Shown: positions 1,596-15,715 of the stretch, piece after piece
How positions within the stretch are numbered: position 1 is the stretch's first letter
Layout: the number at the start of each line of letters is the position of its first letter
DNA from: Caballeronia sp. SL2Y3
Lineage (GTDB): Bacteria; Pseudomonadota; Gammaproteobacteria; Burkholderiales; Burkholderiaceae
Assembly: GCF_022879575.1 (NCBI RefSeq)
Contig: NZ_CP084264.1
Coordinates: forward strand, 1 to 20,142
Direction of reading: 5' to 3'
Length of the DNA: 20,142 nt
The notes under the pieces: generated by a model
Seen by the model: the letters and a program-made list of their open reading frames with translations, nothing else
The model's database searches: none
What the model was told of the DNA's origin: nothing
Translations under genes and position numbers: made by a program

Positions 1596-1755
1596 GCCCG
1601 GACGGTTTCCCGGTAACTCGGCCAACCGCTACTGATTCTTGCCCGACGCATCCCGTAGCGGCTCATCTGACAAAGCAGATACTCGATGGACGAATCCGCG
1701 AGTTATCACGTCGAGCTAGATCGACGCAGCCAGTCAGTCCTGGCTCTGAAAAAAA

Positions 1756-2628
1756 CTATGGATAAGGAGCGAACGGCGTTGCCATGTATGCCTGGACCGC
1801 GGCGGTGGTACAAATTATGTTAAAAGCGCGCCATCCAAAACTTACTTTGTACAGAACGGGCGTCGCCGGACAGCACCATTGCAATACATCCAGAATCCGT
1901 GCGTGCTCGTTACGAAGACCTAGAACTGCCTGTGACCAGTGTCGCTCGGAGCCGGTCAGCCGATGAGGTTTCCAGACCGGTTCGTAATGTGCGATACGGT
2001 TACGCAAGTCCTGAATTTTTTTCAGCGTATCGATCAGGCTGTTGACGTTGGCGTCAAAACTCCAGTGTTTAGGCGATCCGTTGGGATAGTAAGGGAATAT
2101 CTCGTGCAGAATTTTTTGCCGTTGAAACTTGGTGAGACCCTGAAGGAAATTTGGCCAAAACCCAAACGAAAGGGACGCCACGACCTGATCAGGGGATGGT
2201 TGAACGGCACGCCGCATCCGCAATCCAGCGCTAGGTGGCTCGTAGAGCAGGTCATCGATTTTGTCGCGTGATTTGCCCTTGGTTGGCAGAGCTTCCGGCC
2301 GTGTATGGTCATACCAGGGATGGGATTCACTGGTGCTCTTGGATGCAAACAGGGAAGCATGCTTATGAACGGCGTTTCGCAAAACGACTTCATAAGTGGA
2401 AACGATAGGCTGAAAAGATCCGGCAACAGCTTGGCCCCACAGGTAAGCACCGATCAGCTCAACGTCAGTGCTGCAGTTGAAGAATGACCGGTAAGCGTCA
2501 AGCCGGGGTTTCGCAATCAGTTCCATCGCCGCGCCGAGTTCGGCGGCCGTCGGAGCAGGACGTGCTGCTGGCGCGACGGGGACAGGGGCTGCAGACACTG
2601 GCGGTATGGTGGAAGCGGAGTTGCTCAA
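1756..2628 (-). CDS. Abi-like HEPN protein (AbiD/F, Abi_2 family)
   Basis: The protein has features of the Abi_2 abortive-infection family. There is an N-terminal helical region with W64-G and S71-F, then YEVVLRN (79-85), SFGFW (154-158), and a C-terminal LRNRIAHYEP. The last contains R209-x4-H214, the HEPN RNase motif. A second arginine-histidine pair, R84-x5-H90, occurs in LRNAVHKH, so two HEPN-like motifs may be present. Full length from the TTG at 2628 is 290 aa. The first 30 residues are a Pro/Ala-rich low-complexity stretch, and the ATG for M35 is an alternative start. There is no TM segment. Family members act as RNases that halt growth after phage infection. A probable structured RNA is encoded divergently just upstream. 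Confidence 0.8.
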   Translation of the reverse strand: MSNSASTIPPVSAAPVPVAPAARPAPTAAELGAAMELIAKPRLDAYRSFFNCSTDVELIGAYLWGQAVAGSFQPIVSTYEVVLRNAVHKHASLFASKSTSESHPWYDHTRPEALPTKGKSRDKIDDLLYEPPSAGLRMRRAVQPSPDQVVASLSFGFWPNFLQGLTKFQRQKILHEIFPYYPNGSPKHWSFDANVNSLIDTLKKIQDLRNRIAHYEPVWKPHRLTGSERHWSQAVLGLRNEHARILDVLQWCCPATPVLYKVSFGWRAFNIICTTAAVQAYMATPFAPYP

Positions 2629-2649
2629 GGATGAAAAACCTTATATTAT

Positions 2650-2761
2650 GGGCGGGTAGGCAGAGTGATCCCACTCCCGCACCTCTTCGAGGTACCTAAA
2701 GCCGGTGAAGCCACTTCTGTAAAAGAGTCGAAAGCCACCCTTGCGGTGGCTTTTGGCTTTT
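2650..2761 (+). ncRNA. Candidate structured small RNA divergent from abi-like gene
   Basis: This plus-strand stretch has no ORF but ends in a clear intrinsic terminator (stem 2731-2739/2745-2753, then TTTTGGCTTTT). Upstream are three local hairpins: GAGTG/CACTC (2663-2667/2672-2676, extendable by GCGGG 2652-2656/CCCGC 2676-2680), ACCTC/GAGGT (2681-2685/2689-2693) and GAAG/CTTC (2707-2710/2714-2717). A possible promoter is TTGCTC (2621-2626), 17 bp, TATTAT (2644-2649), giving an RNA of about 105 nt. The flanking genes are both on the minus strand, so the terminator serves no known gene. AbiF-type proteins are known to be accompanied by conserved small RNAs (the Rfam abiF motif). Correspondence to that motif here is inference. 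Confidence 0.5.
2731..2761 (+). terminator. Intrinsic terminator of the candidate sRNA
   Basis: A perfect 9-bp stem AAAGCCACC/GGTGGCTTT with a 5-nt loop is followed by a U-rich tail on the plus strand. The minus strand lacks an adjacent T tract, so the direction is plus. Confidence 0.75.
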
Positions 2762-2798
2762 CAGGCCCTGATTTGTACGCTCGTAGGCAGCGATATCA

Positions 2799-3239
2799 CT
2801 AGGCACTACCGAGAAGCCCGCCATCCTGCGGGCTTTTTTGTTGTTGGTCGCTTTCAAGCTTCTTCGTTACTTCTCTTTTCGCTATTTCCTGCAAGCGCAG
2901 GACAAGTCCACTCACATCGAAGCCTTTGCGCGCCTGGCCGCTTGGGCTAAGCGCTGAAGCGCGCTTCACAAAATGCTTCCGTTCGAGCGACTCAACGGCT
3001 CTTTGTACCGACCGGCTTGACACACCCATCCGCTTCGCCAGCATTGACACGCCGGGGAACGGCAACGAATCCGCTTGCCACCAGAAGTCCAGGATGTTCA
3101 GCAACACAACCATCTCACTGTTGGTCAGATCCAGTTCAGTTTGATACTTGAACAACAGGTGCGGCACGGGCTGAAACCCGCTGTTGACGGCGTCGCCCCA
3201 GCGAATCCTTACCGCTTCCTTTTCGCGTTCGATGAACAT
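2799..3239 (-). CDS. Winged helix-turn-helix (HTH_36-like) protein
   Basis: The 146-aa protein starts with the only in-frame ATG after an upstream stop. No good Shine-Dalgarno precedes it. Residues about 20-90 (PHLLFKYQTELDLTNSEMVV, then ILDFWW and a PGVSMLAKRMGVS-SRSVQRAVESLE segment) have the pattern of an HTH_36 winged helix with a clear recognition helix (SSRSVQRAVESLERK). This is seen in plasmid and phage regulators and in N-terminal domains of some Rep proteins. The C-terminal 50 residues are polar and probably flexible. Its last codons overlap the second plus-strand terminator. It is divergent from the P63C gene, so it is a candidate regulator of the TGCTTGCA array, but that is inference. 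Confidence 0.7.
   Translation of the reverse strand: MFIEREKEAVRIRWGDAVNSGFQPVPHLLFKYQTELDLTNSEMVVLLNILDFWWQADSLPFPGVSMLAKRMGVSSRSVQRAVESLERKHFVKRASALSPSGQARKGFDVSGLVLRLQEIAKREVTKKLESDQQQKSPQDGGLLGSA
2814..2839 (+). terminator. Second plus-strand intrinsic terminator
   Basis: An 8-bp stem AAGCCCGC/GCGGGCTT (2814-2821/2828-2835) with loop CATCCT runs into six T residues (2834-2839). It lies inside the 3' end of the minus-strand HTH gene and works in the plus direction. It is either a second stop for the sRNA or the end of a second short RNA. Confidence 0.65.
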
Positions 3240-3370
3240 GAACCAAACTTTACATGCTTCCGGCGTAAAAATCTATTCTTCTATATATTCGCGACAAAAG
3301 CGTCGCTTTTTCCGAGGCAACGCTTGAAGCTGTGAGTCGTGATGGCAAAGGACACACACCGAATTATTTT

Positions 3371-3433
3371 TGCTTGCATGCTTGCAAACAACCGGTGCAA
3401 GCATTTATGCTTGCACCTAACTTAATGCAAGCA
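3371..3433. promoter_or_regulatory. TGCTTGCA operator array upstream of P63C gene
   Basis: Five exact copies of TGCTTGCA or its complement lie within 63 bp: 3371-3378, 3379-3386, 3396-3403 (inverted), 3408-3415 and 3426-3433 (inverted). The middle two form a perfect palindrome with 11-nt arms (GGTGCAAGCAT and its complement) around TT at 3394-3417. The array ends 16 bp before the ATG at 3450. It is most simply an operator set for the P63C gene or the divergent HTH gene. Confidence 0.65.
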
Positions 3434-3449
3434 TAACCGGAGCTGTCGC

Positions 3450-4463
3450 ATGGAACCGAAGGACGTAAAAAAGCAGGCAGCAGCGAAGGCTCGCGCAAGT
3501 TCACTGAGCTCTGAAGATCGCTCTGCGATCGCCAAACAGGCCGCAGGAAAGCGCTGGGCCAAGGAGCATGGCCTGCCTCAAGCACAGTTTGGATCTGGTG
3601 AATCACCGCTGATGATTGGCGGAATTCAAATTGACTGTTATGTGCTTGATGACGGTCGCCGTGTGCTGACGCAAGAGAGTTTTCTTACCAGCATCGGACG
3701 GGCAGCAAAGGCGAAGGGCGGCCAAGGCGTCCGAACGGCCGTCGATAAGTTGCCCCCGTTTATCGCTGCGTCCAATTTACAGCCGTTTGTGGAACGCGAG
3801 CTATCTCAAGCGACCGCGCCCATCGAATTCGTAACGCCTAGCGGCGCGCGCGTACTCGGATATCCGGCGGAAATGCTACCGGAGGTCTGCAGAGTCTATC
3901 TGGCGGCACGCGACGAAGGCGCTCTGTTACCTAGTCAGAAACACATCGCAGAGCGCGCAGACATGCTGGTGCGAGCGCTTGCGAGCGTGGGTATCGTTGC
4001 CCTCGTCGACGAAGCCACAGGCTACCAAGAAGTCCGCGATAAAAAAGCGCTTGCTGCACTGCTGGACAAGTATCTTCGTCAAGAATTCGCTAAATGGGCG
4101 AAGAGATTTCCTGACTCGTTCTATAAAGAGATGTTTCGGCTTCGAGAGTGGCCATACCCAACCGTTTCGGGAGGCAAACCTGGCGTTGTCGGAAAGTACA
4201 CAATGGATATCGTATATGACCGCTTAGCTCCAGGCCTCGTCCAAGAACTTGAGACGCGTAATCCTAAGAACGAGTCTGGCCGGCGCGCCGCTAAGCATCA
4301 TCAATGGCTATCGGATGATGTTGGCCACCCGGCTTTGAGCGAACACATTCATGCCGTCACCGGGCTGATGCGGGCATGCGATAACTGGACACAGTTTATC
4401 GGCATGTTGGATCGAGCCTTCCCAAGAAAAGGGGACTCGCTGCGACTTGAAGGATTCGAGTGA
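3450..4463 (+). CDS. P63C-domain protein
   Basis: The 337-aa protein carries a C-terminal P63C domain (about residues 125-325). Recognisable elements are Y-P-A-E-MLPEVCRVYLAAR, the strongly conserved VGIVALVDEATGYQEVR (about 183-199), the KWAKRFPDSFYKEMFRLREW block, and the IVYDRLAPGL and KHHQWL-x4-GHPAL motifs. The N-terminus is Lys/Ala-rich (KKQAAAKARASS...), perhaps nucleic-acid contacting. The start is supported by GGAG about 8 nt upstream. P63C domains occur in phages and plasmids, often joined to other DNA-associated domains; the molecular function is not established. It stands alone, preceded by the TGCTTGCA array, so it is probably tightly regulated. Confidence 0.85.
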   Translation: MEPKDVKKQAAAKARASSLSSEDRSAIAKQAAGKRWAKEHGLPQAQFGSGESPLMIGGIQIDCYVLDDGRRVLTQESFLTSIGRAAKAKGGQGVRTAVDKLPPFIAASNLQPFVERELSQATAPIEFVTPSGARVLGYPAEMLPEVCRVYLAARDEGALLPSQKHIAERADMLVRALASVGIVALVDEATGYQEVRDKKALAALLDKYLRQEFAKWAKRFPDSFYKEMFRLREWPYPTVSGGKPGVVGKYTMDIVYDRLAPGLVQELETRNPKNESGRRAAKHHQWLSDDVGHPALSEHIHAVTGLMRACDNWTQFIGMLDRAFPRKGDSLRLEGFE

Positions 4464-9842: not shown

Positions 9843-10142
9843 AAATGCGCGTCAAGGGTTGTGGGAGGATACGGCGTGCGCTCACGAACTCAGGAACAAT
9901 TGGCTCTCGCGGACGTTTTTGCGCAAAACGCCAGACTGTCTGTTTTTCAACCAGATGCACGTCTGAAGAAACCGGCTTTCGGATACGATCTCCGAAAATT
10001 GAAAAAATCCGACGTATGAAGCCCGAATCACTGGTGTCGTCCTGGCCATCGCTATCTTTCGCCCAAAGCGAAGTGACAAATCATCGACCGCGAAATCTGC
10101 ACATTGAATCTTGATCGGCTCAAGGAAGAGCGAGACCACGAT
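9843..10142. other. Intergenic region between parA and hsdR
   Basis: This 300-bp stretch has no ORF with coding character. It holds a perfect inverted repeat TTTCGGA-N7-TCCGAAA (9977-9997) and a palindromic-looking TTTTTGCGCAAAA (9916-9928). One of these may be an operator for the hsd genes. I could not fix a promoter with confidence. Confidence 0.4.
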
Positions 10143-12494
10143 ATGGAAAACAAGAAAGCCCTGTCTGAAAGGGACATTTGCACGAAAATCATCACCCCTG
10201 CCTTAAGCGCTGCCGGTTGGGATATCCAGACACAGCTGCGCGAAGAAGTGGCGCTGACCAGTGGGCGGGTCATCGTGAAAGGCAACAAGGCCAAGCGCGA
10301 CGAAAAGTCCATCCGGCGCGCAGACTACGTGTTGTACCTCAAACCCGGCATCCCGCTCGCGGTGGTCGAGGCCAAGGACAACAATCACACGGTGCGCGCC
10401 GGGATTCAACAGGCGCTCGACTATGCGGCGATGCTCGATGTGCCGTTTGCGTTTTCCAGTAACGGCGACGGCTTCCTGTTTCATGACAAGACGCTTCACG
10501 ACGGCAAGCTCGAACGGGAGATTGCACTTGACGCGTTCCCCTCGCCGGACACTTTGTGGCAGCGTTACCTGAGCTGGAAGGGCATCGCGTCGAACGTCGA
10601 GCCGCTCTACGCGCAGGATTATTACCCGGGAAAACCCTCGCGCTACTACCAGCTGAACGCGGTCAACCGCGCCATCGAGGCGGTCGCCAAAAAGCAGTCG
10701 CGCATCCTGCTGGTCATGGCGACCGGCACGGGCAAGACCTATACGGCCTTTCAGATCATCTGGCGCCTGTGGAAGGCGAAGGCAGCCAAGCGCATCCTGT
10801 TCCTGGCCGACCGCAATATCCTCGTCGACCAAACCAAGACGAACGACTTCAAGCCTTTCGCCGGGGCGATGACTAAGATTGAGAATCGCACCGTCGACAA
10901 GGCCTACGAGATCTATCTGTCGCTGTATCAGGCGGTGACGGGGACGGAAGACGCACAGAACATCTATCGGCAGTTCAGCCCCGACTTCTTCGATCTGGTC
11001 GTCATCGACGAGTGTCACCGTGGCAGCGCCGCCGAGGATTCAGCGTGGCGCGCGATCCTCGACTATTTCAATTCCGCCACCCATCTTGGCCTGACGGCAA
11101 CGCCCAAGGAAACCACCGAGGTCTCGAACATCACCTACTTCGGCGAGCCGGTCTACACCTATTCGTTGCGTCAAGGCATCGAAGACGGGTTTCTCGCCCC
11201 GTACAAGGTGATTCGCGTCGACCTCGATAAGGACCTGGGCTGGCGACCGACCACCGGCTTGGTGGACAAGCTCGGCCAAGTTGTCGAAGACCGTATCTAC
11301 AACCAGTCCGACATGAACCGGTCGCTGGTGCTCACGCGCCGTGATGAGGCCGTCGCGAAACGCATCACCGAATTCCTTAAAGCCACCGATCGCATGTCTA
11401 AGACGATCGTGTTTTGCGAAGACATCGATCATGCGGCCCGGATGCGCCAGGCGTTGATCAACGCCAACGCCGATCTAGCCAGCGCCAACTCGAAGTACGT
11501 GATGCAGATCACCGGCGACAATCCGGAGGGCAAGCTGGAACTCGATAACTTTATCAACCCGCGCCGGCCTTACCCCGTGATCGCCACGACCTCGCGCTTG
11601 ATGACGACCGGCGTCGACGCCAAGACCTGCAAGCTGGTGGTGCTCGACCGCACCATCAAGTCGATGACCGAGTTCAAACAGATCATCGGGCGCGGGACAC
11701 GCATCGACGAGGAACACGACAAGCTGTGGTTTACGATTCTCGATTTTAAGAAGGCAACCGAGCTGTTCGCCGATCCCGCGTTCGACGGTGATCCGGTCGT
11801 CATCTACGATCCGCAGCCCGACGAACCGGTCGTGCCGCCCACCGTTCCGACAGAAGGCGAGAACGGAGACGGTTCGCGCAATACCGACGGAACGACGGGT
11901 GGGACGGGCGGAACGGACCCTGGCCCTGGCCCTGGCCGCATCAAATATGTGATCGACTCGGTACCCGTTTACCTGGTCAACGAACGGGTCCAGTATCTCG
12001 GCCCGGATGGCAAGCTGATCACCGAATCACTGCGCGATTTCACGCGGATCCAGATCGGCAAGCAGTTCGTGTCGCTCGACGCGTTCCTTCAGGCGTGGAA
12101 CCAGACGGATAAAAAGCAGGCCATCATTGACGAGCTTGAAGGACATGGTGTGCTGTTCGACGAGCTAGCCAAGGAATCTGGCAAAGATCTCGATCCCTTC
12201 GATCTCGTGTGTCATATCGCGTTCGGGCAGAAGCCGCTGACACGGCGGGAACGCGCTGAGAGGGTCAAGAAGCAGGACTATTTCGGCAAGTACGGCGACA
12301 CGTCGCGCAAGGTGCTGCAGGCGTTGCTCGACAAGTACGCGGACGACGGCATTGAAAACATTGAACGCGTCGAAGTCCTGCGGCTCGCGCCTTTTGACCA
12401 GCTCGGTTCCCCGGTCGAACTAATGAAATCGTTCGGCGGCCGGGCGCAGTATGAAACGGCGATCCGTGAACTCGGACGCTCGCTTTACCAATAA
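10143..12494 (+). CDS. hsdR: Type I restriction enzyme R subunit (EcoEI-type)
   Basis: The 783-aa subunit starts at the ATG at 10143. A TTG further upstream (10104) would add a 13-residue extension not typical of the family, which begins near 'LSERDICTK'. The nuclease domain shows D61 and E76-A-K78 (VVEAK). The SF2 translocase has ATGTGKT (193-199), DECH (289-292), LTATP (about 317-321) and a motif VI QIIGRGTR near residue 515. A Gly/Thr/Pro-rich linker (about 590-610) leads to a C-terminal domain of the EcoEI_R_C type that binds the methylase. With HsdM and HsdS it forms the restriction complex, which translocates DNA and cuts away from its site. hsdM follows after 18 nt. Confidence 0.95.
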   Translation: MENKKALSERDICTKIITPALSAAGWDIQTQLREEVALTSGRVIVKGNKAKRDEKSIRRADYVLYLKPGIPLAVVEAKDNNHTVRAGIQQALDYAAMLDVPFAFSSNGDGFLFHDKTLHDGKLEREIALDAFPSPDTLWQRYLSWKGIASNVEPLYAQDYYPGKPSRYYQLNAVNRAIEAVAKKQSRILLVMATGTGKTYTAFQIIWRLWKAKAAKRILFLADRNILVDQTKTNDFKPFAGAMTKIENRTVDKAYEIYLSLYQAVTGTEDAQNIYRQFSPDFFDLVVIDECHRGSAAEDSAWRAILDYFNSATHLGLTATPKETTEVSNITYFGEPVYTYSLRQGIEDGFLAPYKVIRVDLDKDLGWRPTTGLVDKLGQVVEDRIYNQSDMNRSLVLTRRDEAVAKRITEFLKATDRMSKTIVFCEDIDHAARMRQALINANADLASANSKYVMQITGDNPEGKLELDNFINPRRPYPVIATTSRLMTTGVDAKTCKLVVLDRTIKSMTEFKQIIGRGTRIDEEHDKLWFTILDFKKATELFADPAFDGDPVVIYDPQPDEPVVPPTVPTEGENGDGSRNTDGTTGGTGGTDPGPGPGRIKYVIDSVPVYLVNERVQYLGPDGKLITESLRDFTRIQIGKQFVSLDAFLQAWNQTDKKQAIIDELEGHGVLFDELAKESGKDLDPFDLVCHIAFGQKPLTRRERAERVKKQDYFGKYGDTSRKVLQALLDKYADDGIENIERVEVLRLAPFDQLGSPVELMKSFGGRAQYETAIRELGRSLYQ

Positions 12495-12512
12495 CGTTTA
12501 ACGGCTTCACTC

Positions 12513-13982
12513 ATGACGATCAGTTCCACCTTCATCAAGTCCGTGCAGGACATCATGCGGCAGGATGCCGGCGTCGATGGCGACGCGCAGCGGATTGCGC
12601 AATTGACCTGGCTGCTGTTCCTGAAAATCTTCGACGATCAGGAAGCCGAGCTCGAACTGATGCGCGACGAATATACGTCGCCCTTGCCAGAGCGGCTGCG
12701 CTGGCGTAGCTGGGCGGCGGATGCCGAAGGTATCACCGGCGACGAGCTGCTGAGCTTCATCAACACGGATCTGTTCCCGTCAATCAAGGCGCTGAACGTG
12801 GATCCGCAGCGCAACGCGCGCGGCTTTGTCGCCCGCGAAGTGTTCAGCGACGCGTACAACTACATGAAGTCAGGTCAGCTGCTGCGGCAGGTGATCAACA
12901 AGATTAACGAGGTCGACTTCAACAATCGCGCTGATCGCCATCTGTTCAACGACCTCTATGAGCGCATCCTCAAGGACCTGCAAAGTGCGGGCAACGCCGG
13001 AGAGTTTTATACGCCGCGCGCCGTGACACAGTTCATGGTGGATCAAGTGAATCCGCGCCTCGGCGAGCGCATCCTGGATCCGGCGTGCGGCACGGGCGGC
13101 TTTCTCGCCTGCGCGCTGGAACACCTCAAGGCGCAGCGTAAGAGTGTTGACGACGATATCGTCGTGCAGAACGCGATTAACGGTGTTGAAAAGAAGCAGC
13201 TGCCGCATCTGCTGTGCGTCACGAATATGATGCTGCACGGGATCGAAGTGCCGTCGCTGATTCGCCACGACAACACCTTGTCTCGGCCACTCGTCGACTA
13301 CGGCACGCGCGACATGGTCGACGTCATCCTCACGAATCCGCCGTTCGGTGGCACCGAGGAGCCCGGCATCGAAGGAAATTTCCCGGCCGACGTGCGCACG
13401 CGCGAGACCGCCGACCTGTTCCTCGTACTGATCATCGAACTGCTGAAGCACAATGGCCGTGCGGCCGTGGTGCTGCCAGACGGCACGCTGTTTGGTGAAG
13501 GCGTCAAAGCTCGCATCAAGGAGAAGCTGCTGACCGAATGCAACCTTCACACCGTCGTGCGACTACCGAATGGCGTCTTTGCGCCGTACACCGGCATTAA
13601 GACCAACCTGCTGTTCTTCACCAAGGGCTCGCCGACCCGAGACGTCTGGTACTACGAGCACCCTTATCCGAGCGGCTACAAGAGCTACTCGAAGACGAAG
13701 CCCATTCGCATTGAGGAGTTTGCAGCGGAGAAAGCCTGGTGGGGGAGCGACGCGGATAGCTTTGCGAGCCGCGTTGAGAACGAATTTGCCTGGAAGGTCG
13801 GCATCGACCGCCTGAAGGCGAACGGCTACAACCTCGACCAGAAGAATCCGCACAGAGGTGATGACATCAGCCATGACCCCGATGAGCTGCTGGCTCAGTA
13901 CACGCGGCTAACGGGCGAGACCCAGACGCTGCGCGATGAATTGAAGGCGATCTTGGCCAATGCGCTCGGAGATCCGGTATGA
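12513..13982 (+). CDS. hsdM: Type I modification methylase subunit
   Basis: The 489-aa adenine-N6 methyltransferase has an N-terminal HsdM helical domain (1-130). This is followed by EFYTPR (164-169), the SAM-binding motif I DPACGTGGF (189-197) and the catalytic motif IV NPPFGG (275-280). It lies 18 nt after hsdR and overlaps hsdS by four bases (ATGA), so the three are one operon. It methylates the recognition site defined by HsdS to protect plasmid and host DNA, and is also part of the restriction complex. All motifs are intact, so it appears functional. Confidence 0.96.
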   Translation: MTISSTFIKSVQDIMRQDAGVDGDAQRIAQLTWLLFLKIFDDQEAELELMRDEYTSPLPERLRWRSWAADAEGITGDELLSFINTDLFPSIKALNVDPQRNARGFVAREVFSDAYNYMKSGQLLRQVINKINEVDFNNRADRHLFNDLYERILKDLQSAGNAGEFYTPRAVTQFMVDQVNPRLGERILDPACGTGGFLACALEHLKAQRKSVDDDIVVQNAINGVEKKQLPHLLCVTNMMLHGIEVPSLIRHDNTLSRPLVDYGTRDMVDVILTNPPFGGTEEPGIEGNFPADVRTRETADLFLVLIIELLKHNGRAAVVLPDGTLFGEGVKARIKEKLLTECNLHTVVRLPNGVFAPYTGIKTNLLFFTKGSPTRDVWYYEHPYPSGYKSYSKTKPIRIEEFAAEKAWWGSDADSFASRVENEFAWKVGIDRLKANGYNLDQKNPHRGDDISHDPDELLAQYTRLTGETQTLRDELKAILANALGDPV

Positions 13983-15715
13983 CGCTGACCGACAATTTTC
14001 AGTTGTTGGCTACATCGCCAGCAGGCGCCGAGCGCTTACGCGATCTAATTCTGATGCTTGCTATGCAAGGCAAGCTGGTGCCTCAATGCTCAACGGATGA
14101 GCCAGCCGAGCGGCTCATGAAGTCGATCCAAGCTGAGAAGAACGCGTCAAATGACGCATCAAAAATAAGTAAGCCGTCGAAGGCTATCTCGGAGGAAGAG
14201 ACGCCTTTTGAACTTCCTAACGGATGGACATGGGTTCGCTTAGGCGACGTTTGCTCGTACATCCAACGCGGGAAAGGGCCAAAATATGCGGAGCAATCCG
14301 ACTATCCCGTGGTCTCTCAGAAGTGCGTCAGGTGGTATGGGCTAGACCTAGCTCAAGCGCGTTTCATCGAGCCTGAATCGATGGAAGGTTACGATCCCGC
14401 GAGGATCTTACGACCAGGCGACATCCTTTGGAACTCAACTGGTACTGGGACGATTGGTCGTGCCGTAGTTGTTCCTTCCGATTTGCCGTTTTCGAAGCTC
14501 GTCGCCGATTCTCACGTCACGGTAGTTCGTCCCGTCTCAGTGTTGCCAAATTTCATTTGGCGCTGGATCCAAAGCCCGTTCGTTCAGGCAGAGATAGAAA
14601 GCATGGCCTCTGGATCGACGAACCAAATCGAATTGGCGACTGGCACCGTCATTGCACATCTCCTGCCGCTGCCGCCTCTTGCCGAACAGGCTCGCATAGT
14701 TGCAAAGGTCAATGTGCTGATGCATCTGTGTGATGAGTTGGAGACTCGCGGCCAGCTAGAGGCGAAGCAGCACGCTCGACTGACGACGACACTTTTCGAT
14801 GCGCTCGCCCGGAGTGAGTCGCCGCACGCGCTTGCGGAAAACTGGGCCCGTGTCGCCGCGCACTTCGACCTGCTGCTCGACCGGCCCGAAGCAGTCGATG
14901 CGCTCGAACAGACCATTCTGCAGCTCGCTGTGCGCGGTCTACTGGTTAAGCAGGAGCCGAACGATGAACCGGCTGGTGAGTTACTGAAACGAATTCAGGT
15001 CGAGAAAAATCGACTCATCGCAGACCACGGATTGCGTACGACAGCGCAGCTGGAAGTTCCAGAGGAGGAAAAGTACCTGGGTGAGGTTCCCGGCTGGCAG
15101 TACTGTCGCTTGGGTAACCTGGCTCGCTTCATTGACTATCGCGGCAGGACGCCACAAAAGGTCGAAGCCGGTATCCCGTTAATTACGGCGAAGAATGTTC
15201 GACCGGGTTTTATCAGTCGCGAGCCCCGTGAATACATTGCTGAAAAGGACTATTCAGCATGGATGACCCGTGGCTTTCCTAGAACTGGCGACCTGCTTTT
15301 CACCACCGAAGCTCCGCTCGGCAACATAGCGCTGATCGATATCACCGAGCGATTCGCGCTCGCTCAGCGCGTCATTTGCTTCCAGTTACATGACTTGTCG
15401 ATAGGGCCGTACCTCCGATTAGCCATCATGTCTGCACAAGTGCAAGAGCAGCTGTCTGCCGCGGCATCCGGAATGACTGCAACGGGCATCAAGGCGTCAC
15501 GCCTCAAGGAGATCCCGATTGCTATCCCGCCTTTAGATGAACAGCGTCGCATTGTCGCTCGCGTAGAGGAGCTACAACGTGTGTGCTTCGACTTGCGCGA
15601 GCGCCTGATCAGACGGCAGCTGTATCAGACACGTTTGGCCGAAGCGCTGGTCGGGCAGGCGGCGTCCACCACACCGTTGCTCTCACCCGCGGACGACCTG
15701 GCAGCAGCTGCCTGA
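13979..15715 (+). CDS. hsdS: Type I specificity subunit
   Basis: The 578-aa protein has two target recognition domains. Each has a typical entry (ELPNGWTWVRLGDVCSYI at about 78-95; EVPGWQYCRLGNLARFI at about 364-380) and exit (PLPPLAEQARIV; IPPLDEQRRIV). The half-subunits also share a conserved segment: LRDLILMLAMQGKLVPQ-x5-EPAERLMKSIQAEK near the N-terminus and LEQTILQLAVRGLLVKQ-x5-EPAGELLKRIQVEK in the centre. It supplies sequence specificity to the HsdRMS complex; the site cannot be read from sequence. TRD1 is more A+T-rich than its surroundings, as expected of recombining specificity cassettes. Its ATG overlaps the hsdM stop. Confidence 0.95.
   Translation: MTLTDNFQLLATSPAGAERLRDLILMLAMQGKLVPQCSTDEPAERLMKSIQAEKNASNDASKISKPSKAISEEETPFELPNGWTWVRLGDVCSYIQRGKGPKYAEQSDYPVVSQKCVRWYGLDLAQARFIEPESMEGYDPARILRPGDILWNSTGTGTIGRAVVVPSDLPFSKLVADSHVTVVRPVSVLPNFIWRWIQSPFVQAEIESMASGSTNQIELATGTVIAHLLPLPPLAEQARIVAKVNVLMHLCDELETRGQLEAKQHARLTTTLFDALARSESPHALAENWARVAAHFDLLLDRPEAVDALEQTILQLAVRGLLVKQEPNDEPAGELLKRIQVEKNRLIADHGLRTTAQLEVPEEEKYLGEVPGWQYCRLGNLARFIDYRGRTPQKVEAGIPLITAKNVRPGFISREPREYIAEKDYSAWMTRGFPRTGDLLFTTEAPLGNIALIDITERFALAQRVICFQLHDLSIGPYLRLAIMSAQVQEQLSAAASGMTATGIKASRLKEIPIAIPPLDEQRRIVARVEELQRVCFDLRERLIRRQLYQTRLAEALVGQAASTTPLLSPADDLAAAA

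Follow-up and report, generated by a model that had tools for sequence, protein, structure and literature searches.

The sequence comparisons indicate that positions 2656-2761 on the plus strand of the window (the whole stretch of 20,142 nucleotides that was analysed) are a conserved structured RNA gene, which sits between two minus-strand genes, abi (1756-2628) and an HTH gene (2799-3239). We infer that the locus is probably a toxin-antitoxin-like (TA-like) defence module, in which a PD-T4-5-type Abi_2 HEPN RNase is paired with a divergent RNA antitoxin of about 106 nt. From 5′ to 3′, the RNA consists of a closing helix (P1), an internal loop, a hairpin (P2), and a long terminator hairpin, and the features of the locus are as follows:

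1756..2628, minus strand: plasmid gene for the PD-T4-5-like Abi_2/HEPN protein, 290 aa from TTG
2621..2649, plus strand: RNA promoter TTGCTC-N17-TATTAT, sigma70-like, 8 of 12 matches (-35 TTGCTC at 2621-2626, -10 TATTAT at 2644-2649)
2656..2761, plus strand: class A divergent small RNA, about 106 nt, 113 bits with covariance model R1 (the window itself being one of the four training rows of R1)
2661..2667, plus strand: 5′ strand of helix P1, CAGAGTG; both-side changes in five of the six model pairs of P1
2712..2719, plus strand: 3′ strand of helix P1, CACTTCTG, from the seven-sequence covariation alignment
2672..2675, plus strand: 5′ strand of the inner helix, CACU, pairing with GGUG at 2704-2707
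2704..2707, plus strand: 3′ strand of the inner helix, GGUG, from the seven-sequence covariation alignment
2681..2693, plus strand: hairpin P2, ACCT-CTTCG-AGGT, which varies among relatives and is weak in G882
2723..2761, plus strand: terminator hairpin (arms 2723-2739/2745-2761), its lower stem extended and its 3′ side rich in U

The initial annotation had described a plus-strand structured RNA with this promoter, and both were recovered in the same place (promoter 2621-2649, RNA 2656-2761, terminator 2723-2761). Its placement of the RNA divergent from an Abi_2/HEPN gene also holds, and the RNA is kept with the gene in relatives. The -35 element overlaps the putative abi start codon, although this start is uncertain: we used the TTG, and there is an in-frame ATG at 2523-2521. 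One pair of the inner helix is U-G in six of seven RNAs, which favours the plus strand as the RNA strand. A strict promoter scan of the window (at least 9 of 12 matches required) reported 0 sites, the RNA promoter having 8 of 12, and a scan of the window for tRNA and tmRNA found none. A further plus-strand terminator-like hairpin lies at 2811-2838, within the 3′ end of the HTH gene, and is also present in FT54.

The window protein matched the PADLOC PD-T4-5 model (E 2.6e-26, 90.6 bits; the PADLOC library has no curated cut-off for PD-T4-5) and reached 24.5 bits against Pfam Abi_2, just below the cut-off of 25.6, while a search of NCBIfam gave no match. A homologue search with the Abi protein yielded 86 proteins. 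All 18 proteins in alignment A4 matched PD-T4-5 at E ≤ 0.001, and 9 of the 18 matched AbiD; when the A4 profile was compared with solved structures, no credible relative was found (best E 0.21). The motif R209-N-R-I-A-H214 is of the R-x4-H form, with R209, N210, and H214 invariant across 64 aligned sequences, and it is the only conserved R-x4-H motif seen in the protein alignment. R84, N85, and H88 form a further near-invariant polar run.

In DNA searches, plasmid DNA from Paraburkholderia sp. FT54 and Undibacterium sp. YM2 was found to carry the RNA, with weaker matches in Undibacterium sp. KW1 and a partial one in Polaromonas sp. P1-6. A protein search of 399 genomes of the order gave matches in 12 genomes, the window's own included. 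From the 18 genomes that matched in another search (E ≤ 1e-3) we used G000, G472, G012, and G319 and left out the other 14 (28-34 bits). The Abi homologue of G472 is about 41-43% identical to the window protein (43% over the matched part) and has a class A RNA divergent from it. We trained the covariance model R1 on the RNAs of the window, FT54, YM2, and G472. With the RNA alone as query, R1 matched G1045, G882, and the window's own genome among 299 genomes of the family (E ≤ 1e-6), and among 297 genomes of G472's family it matched G472 itself only. In G1045, found by this RNA-only search, a homologous Abi gene adjoins the RNA divergently. The full-length class A copies number seven with the window; a divergent, adjacent Abi gene is present at four of them (window, FT54, G472, and G1045) and no adjacent Abi gene at the other three:

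L003:2991-3097, Undibacterium YM2: stand-alone full-length class A RNA, promoter-like site kept
L232:3411-3513, G882: stand-alone full-length class A RNA, promoter-like site kept
L024:3962-4062, Undibacterium KW1: stand-alone full-length class A RNA without promoter-like site

The KW1 copy may have decayed, and the stand-alone copies are possibly anti-Abi or leftover RNAs. Searching the whole YM2 and KW1 plasmid records (plasmids only) with the Abi alignment gave no match. Beside the G882 RNA, the best tblastn match (E 0.004, 75 residues) is antisense to an aldolase-like ORF, and we took it as chance rather than as an Abi remnant. G882 has a second, distant Abi gene on another contig (L258; G882:C46:40587-41429; 173 bits), which is not class A, given its roughly 30% identity to the nearest rows, and which has its own divergent RNA-like element with a terminator (25.8 bits with R1); this element is unlike the stand-alone class A RNA in the same genome. 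Polaromonas P1-6 has an Abi fragment interrupted by stops some 2 kb away from its partial RNA (30 bits), and the orientations of the two match. The tblastn matches on YM2 and KW1 below E 0.03 were the RNA itself, found via P0028 and more weakly via P0030, and the first ~55 residues of these two proteins are probably translated antisense class A RNA, the gene calls being over-extended. As these N-termini appear to read class A antisense, a class A RNA probably lies upstream of both, which suggests two further Abi genes with this arrangement.

Single-sequence evidence for structure in the window RNA is moderate. The fold of 2654-2762 has a z-score of -2.94, and 3 of 200 shuffles were equally good; with the terminator hairpin removed, the window RNA and five relatives fold at z -0.76 to +0.48, no better than shuffles, so that the folding-energy signal comes mainly from the terminator. 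In the alignment of the seven class A copies, 94.8% of cells pair and eight pairs are altered on both sides (2 of 500 shuffles were as high), counts that lean towards the model because the alignment was fitted to it. The covariation score is 0.322, where shuffles average 0.112 and 0 of 500 reach it; the shuffles leave the relatedness of the copies in place. Compensatory base changes across homologues, which the initial annotation had set in advance as one test of its proposal, are present. Five of the eight both-side-changed pairs lie in P1, where the sequence varies and the pairing is kept, and RNAalifold recovered P1 too when run on the same alignment with its own structure prediction.

The minimum-energy folds of the window, YM2, and P1-6 lack P1 in its conserved form. 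Of the three hairpins originally proposed, the 5′ hairpin GAGTG/CACTC is the minimum-energy choice of the window itself, and what is conserved is the long-range P1 (2661-2667/2712-2719). The most constant part of class A is the internal loop, whose strands, CCCACUCCCGC and ACCUAAAGCCGGUGAAG, are near-constant except that KW1 has a deletion and G882 a single change. Single-sequence folds of the RNAs of G472 and G1045, the E. coli PD-T4-5-like RNA, and a Pseudomonas class C RNA have a common architecture of closing helix, inner structure with a hairpin, and long terminator hairpin. A closing helix was also predicted from small alignments of class B (four RNAs) and class C (five RNAs), together with pair changes on both sides. 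A conserved small ORF in the RNA region was considered and is unlikely, since the distance that separates two conserved blocks falls into all three residue classes modulo 3.

At gathering thresholds, no Rfam family matched the window. The initial annotation had pointed to the Rfam abiF motif, and this assignment fails: RF03085 has no match in the window and, when 2300-3000 was searched up to E 10, the 11 weak matches did not include it. It also has no match in G000 at E ≤ 1, in a search that finds one in G736. That abiF RNA (G736:C17:27024-27200, 56 bits) has a weaker second copy alongside, and the 3-kb locus around it (L189) contains ORFs of at least 120 aa only near its ends. For the divergent RNAs at the further loci that were scanned, Rfam likewise gave no match, the single gathering match, RNAI, lying elsewhere in L168. 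Used as a DNA query against 199 relatives, the window RNA matched eight genomes, namely its own and seven in which only the terminator matches; against plasmids (E ≤ 1) it matched 65 records, and among the matches listed nearly all cover the terminator part only. The phage collection contained no match to the RNA. In viral contigs, one exact pattern gave 0 stretches, another gave at least 120, none of the 120 listed fitting the loose RNA pattern, and two further exact patterns gave 38, none of which matches R1 at E ≤ 0.01. Two pattern scans of genome contigs gave 401 stretches without a confirmed relative and 0 stretches, respectively.

In the upstream regions of 19 Abi loci and further ones, many have a -10-like site followed about 60-130 nt on by a divergent terminator. 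The divergent RNA-like elements upstream of distant relatives fall into several sequence classes, with labels assigned by eye:

Class A RNAs: the window type
Class B RNAs: L014, L015, L170, and L177 (GCTCTC..GACAG)
Class C RNAs: L016, L165 (two tandem copies), L169, and L173 (GGTTTTC..CGTGCC)
E. coli PD-T4-5 type RNA: a class of its own; others precede short Abi_2 proteins

In L165 (1208-1448; Pseudomonas aeruginosa plasmid pF061_1), each of the two tandem class C RNAs has a promoter-like site and a terminator. Comparable divergent RNAs were found on plasmids of Pseudomonas, Vibrio, Aeromonas, E. coli, Citrobacter, Serratia, and Aliivibrio, so the earlier suggestion of a Burkholderiales variant was too narrow.

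A script detected a divergent terminator at 20 of 33 Abi loci compared to 7 of 151 control ORFs (Fisher p 1e-12), where the Abi loci were chosen partly for diversity and the controls are other stretches of eight Abi-carrying genomes. The input comprised 34 loci, of which the script dropped L023; L185-L187 were left out as truncated or fused. Looser settings gave 21/33 against 16/151 and 22/33 against 27/151, and an earlier script with over-extended stems gave 12/33 against 13/151. Sense-strand terminator-like hairpins were enriched as well (14/33 against 8/151), because such hairpins are partly symmetric. The script found no divergent terminator at 13 of the 33 loci; by eye, an RNA-like element is visible in L002, L174, L180, L181, L183, L188, L020, and L021 despite the script's miss, and no RNA is recognisable in L017, L167, L171, L172, and L178. 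For 15 of 18 RNAs, a promoter scoring 7 or more of 12 matches has its end 4-8 nt ahead of the RNA start; such a site occurred at 122 of 4000 random positions, in 235 of 3600 shuffles, and, when the other end and strand were tested, in 1 of 18. This test is not fully independent because RNA starts outside class A were set by eye.

The RNA recurs divergent from the Abi family, and RNA class and protein clade go together. The protein tree, built from 29 sequences, unites the four class A rows in one clade and the four class C rows in another (100/100 each). The Burkholderiales members of class B, three rows, form a clade as well (96/89); the class B row from Vibrio is placed elsewhere, in the same unresolved group of eight. 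In classes A, B, and C, conservation is maximal over the promoter and RNA and falls just past the terminator, while conservation on the coding side is low in class A and fairly high in classes B and C. The top E. coli scorer on the PD-T4-5 model, WP_001376111 (435 bits), also has a divergent RNA. Used as a query, this RNA matched seven plasmid records, and all four places that were opened (in E. coli, Citrobacter, Serratia, and Aliivibrio) have a divergent Abi homologue, down to 45% identity, the E. coli place carrying the query record's own gene. E. coli pISHS7_3 (L176) shares with the Citrobacter plasmid a homology block (1267-2545 of L176, 90.8%) that covers the RNA and the gene and extends only a little past them; the block shared by the two E. 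coli plasmids is longer (897-2900 of L176). These alignments indicate that the E. coli PD-T4-5-like RNA travels with its gene. A Serratia nevei protein annotated as a CAAX protease (L253:474-1427) is an Abi_2 homologue with a divergent RNA and is 71% identical to the E. coli PD-T4-5-like protein.

Judged by sequence, the window RNA and its PD-T4-5-type protein appear to resemble known RNA-antitoxin HEPN systems, with the divergent placement and the different RNA as the apparently new elements. According to the available sections of one report, C. difficile AbiF is toxic and is neutralised by RCd22 through direct binding, in cis and in trans, and RCd22 lies upstream of abiF on the same strand and is co-transcribed with it (PMC12373285). 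A structure of PbAbiF with its ncRNA, AbiFr (8VZ6), is noted in the accessible part of a review (PMC12737573). As in both of these, going by the same excerpts, the window has an Abi_2 HEPN RNase with an R-x4-H motif beside a structured RNA of about 100 nt with its own promoter and terminator. Unlike RCd22, which those sections place upstream on the same strand, the window RNA is divergent and on the opposite strand, and unlike both systems the window locus lacks the abiF motif and its protein fits the PD-T4-5 model. The Rfam abiF RNA (RF03085) is likewise associated with abi genes, but the window RNA does not match its model. Lactococcus AbiD1 is instead activated at translation by a phage protein, as stated in the available part of its description (PMC2661086). 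PD-T4-5 was found as a T4-defence gene; in the portion of their paper at hand, Vassallo et al. call it TA-like, validated multi-component systems only, and describe no antitoxin or RNA for it (PMC9519451). The window protein falls under the same PADLOC model, and E. coli WP_001376111 has a divergent RNA of like architecture, although the window protein scores 90.6 bits only, unlike this top scorer. Type III TA systems (ToxIN) employ an antitoxin RNA of tandem repeats against a protein RNase. The proposed RNA antitoxin would likewise act against a protein RNase, but the window has no tandem RNA repeats (1600-3500), and it has a HEPN protein and a divergent arrangement. Unlike type VI CRISPR, no direct repeats of at least 16 nt lie beside the window gene (1600-3500).

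The accessible portions of the literature on AbiF, Abi_2, PD-T4-5, and RNA antitoxins yielded no divergent RNA for PD-T4-5-type proteins, and an earlier description is possible. The window RNA would be a concrete candidate partner for PD-T4-5, a TA-like gene for which the consulted part of the original study describes no antitoxin (PMC9519451). It would also mean that the control of Abi_2 HEPN proteins by RNA is not confined to the abiF motif. The correspondence between RNA classes and protein clades bears on the path from RNA-inhibited to RNA-guided HEPN nucleases, such as Cas13, which Zilberzwige-Tal et al. reportedly trace to AbiF.

The literature on AbiF/RCd22, the PbAbiF ncRNA, AbiD1, and PD-T4-5 leads us to favour an RNA antitoxin that binds the HEPN protein. 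The RNA would be made constitutively and would fold so that P1 closes around the conserved internal loop and P2, with P1 acting as a scaffold and the constant loop strands CCCACUCCCGC and ACCUAAAGCCGGUGAAG as the likely protein-contact surface. It would then bind its cognate HEPN protein and keep the RNase site silent; if the RNA were lost or intercepted during phage infection, the nuclease would be released and the infection aborted.

The RNA could instead be an antisense or transcription-interference regulator, with the abi leader crossing the RNA gene and the RNA pairing with that leader. Its promoter overlaps the abi start region, with the -35 inside the coding sequence in several loci, and an abi transcript begun upstream would therefore be complementary to the RNA. 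Pure pairing, however, needs no compensatory pairs in P1 and leaves the constant internal loop unexplained, and the inner helix has its U-G pair on the RNA strand; we consider this regulator unlikely as the explanation, and antisense and protein-binding mechanisms may act together. A role as guide or phage sensor, in which the RNA would direct or license the HEPN nuclease in the manner of a Cas13 ancestor, is highly improbable. Cas13 is regarded as descended from HEPN Abi_2 proteins (PMC12737573, in its accessible part), but no direct repeat family of at least 16 nt occurs in 1600-3500, the class A loop strands are near-constant save for the KW1 deletion and the one G882 change, and the alignment has a single conserved R-x4-H motif. 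The initial annotation had the RNA either controlling or guiding the protein; restraint is the favoured form of control, and guiding is less likely given the absence of a repeat-spacer array beside the gene and the constant class A internal loop. Its interpretation as a whole is partly supported.

An independent plasmid or housekeeping sRNA that lies next to abi by chance also seems very unlikely. On the Undibacterium YM2 and KW1 plasmids and in G882, full-length class A copies occur with no Abi gene next to them, which makes an independent role for the RNA possible; against this, Abi is divergent and adjacent at four of the seven full-length copies, and other abi clades have other RNAs at the same place. 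The terminator scan reports the RNA terminator hairpin on the minus strand only (2753-2731), as would suit a hairpin that is simply the terminator of the minus-strand HTH gene (2799-3239). That reading has next to no probability and is refuted as a sole explanation, as the RNA is kept beside other neighbours (G472, G1045, and YM2) with a covarying P1 and a promoter-like site, although the hairpin may serve both strands. Returning to the RNA antitoxin, we tentatively propose, with more doubt than confidence, that divergent HEPN-antitoxin RNAs could be general and clade-specific in PD-T4-5-type Abi_2 systems of Pseudomonadota and supply the undescribed antitoxin of PD-T4-5, and that stand-alone copies on plasmids and chromosomes could be kept as anti-Abi RNAs protecting their carriers from related Abi systems.

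Elsewhere in the window, a P63C-domain gene (3450-4463) has several GCAAGCAT-type repeats upstream of it, at 3370-3440, where positions 3394-3417 form a palindrome; these repeats and the palindrome are perhaps an operator. Positions 10104-15715 hold a type I restriction-modification operon with R, M, and S subunits, as recognised by PADLOC models.
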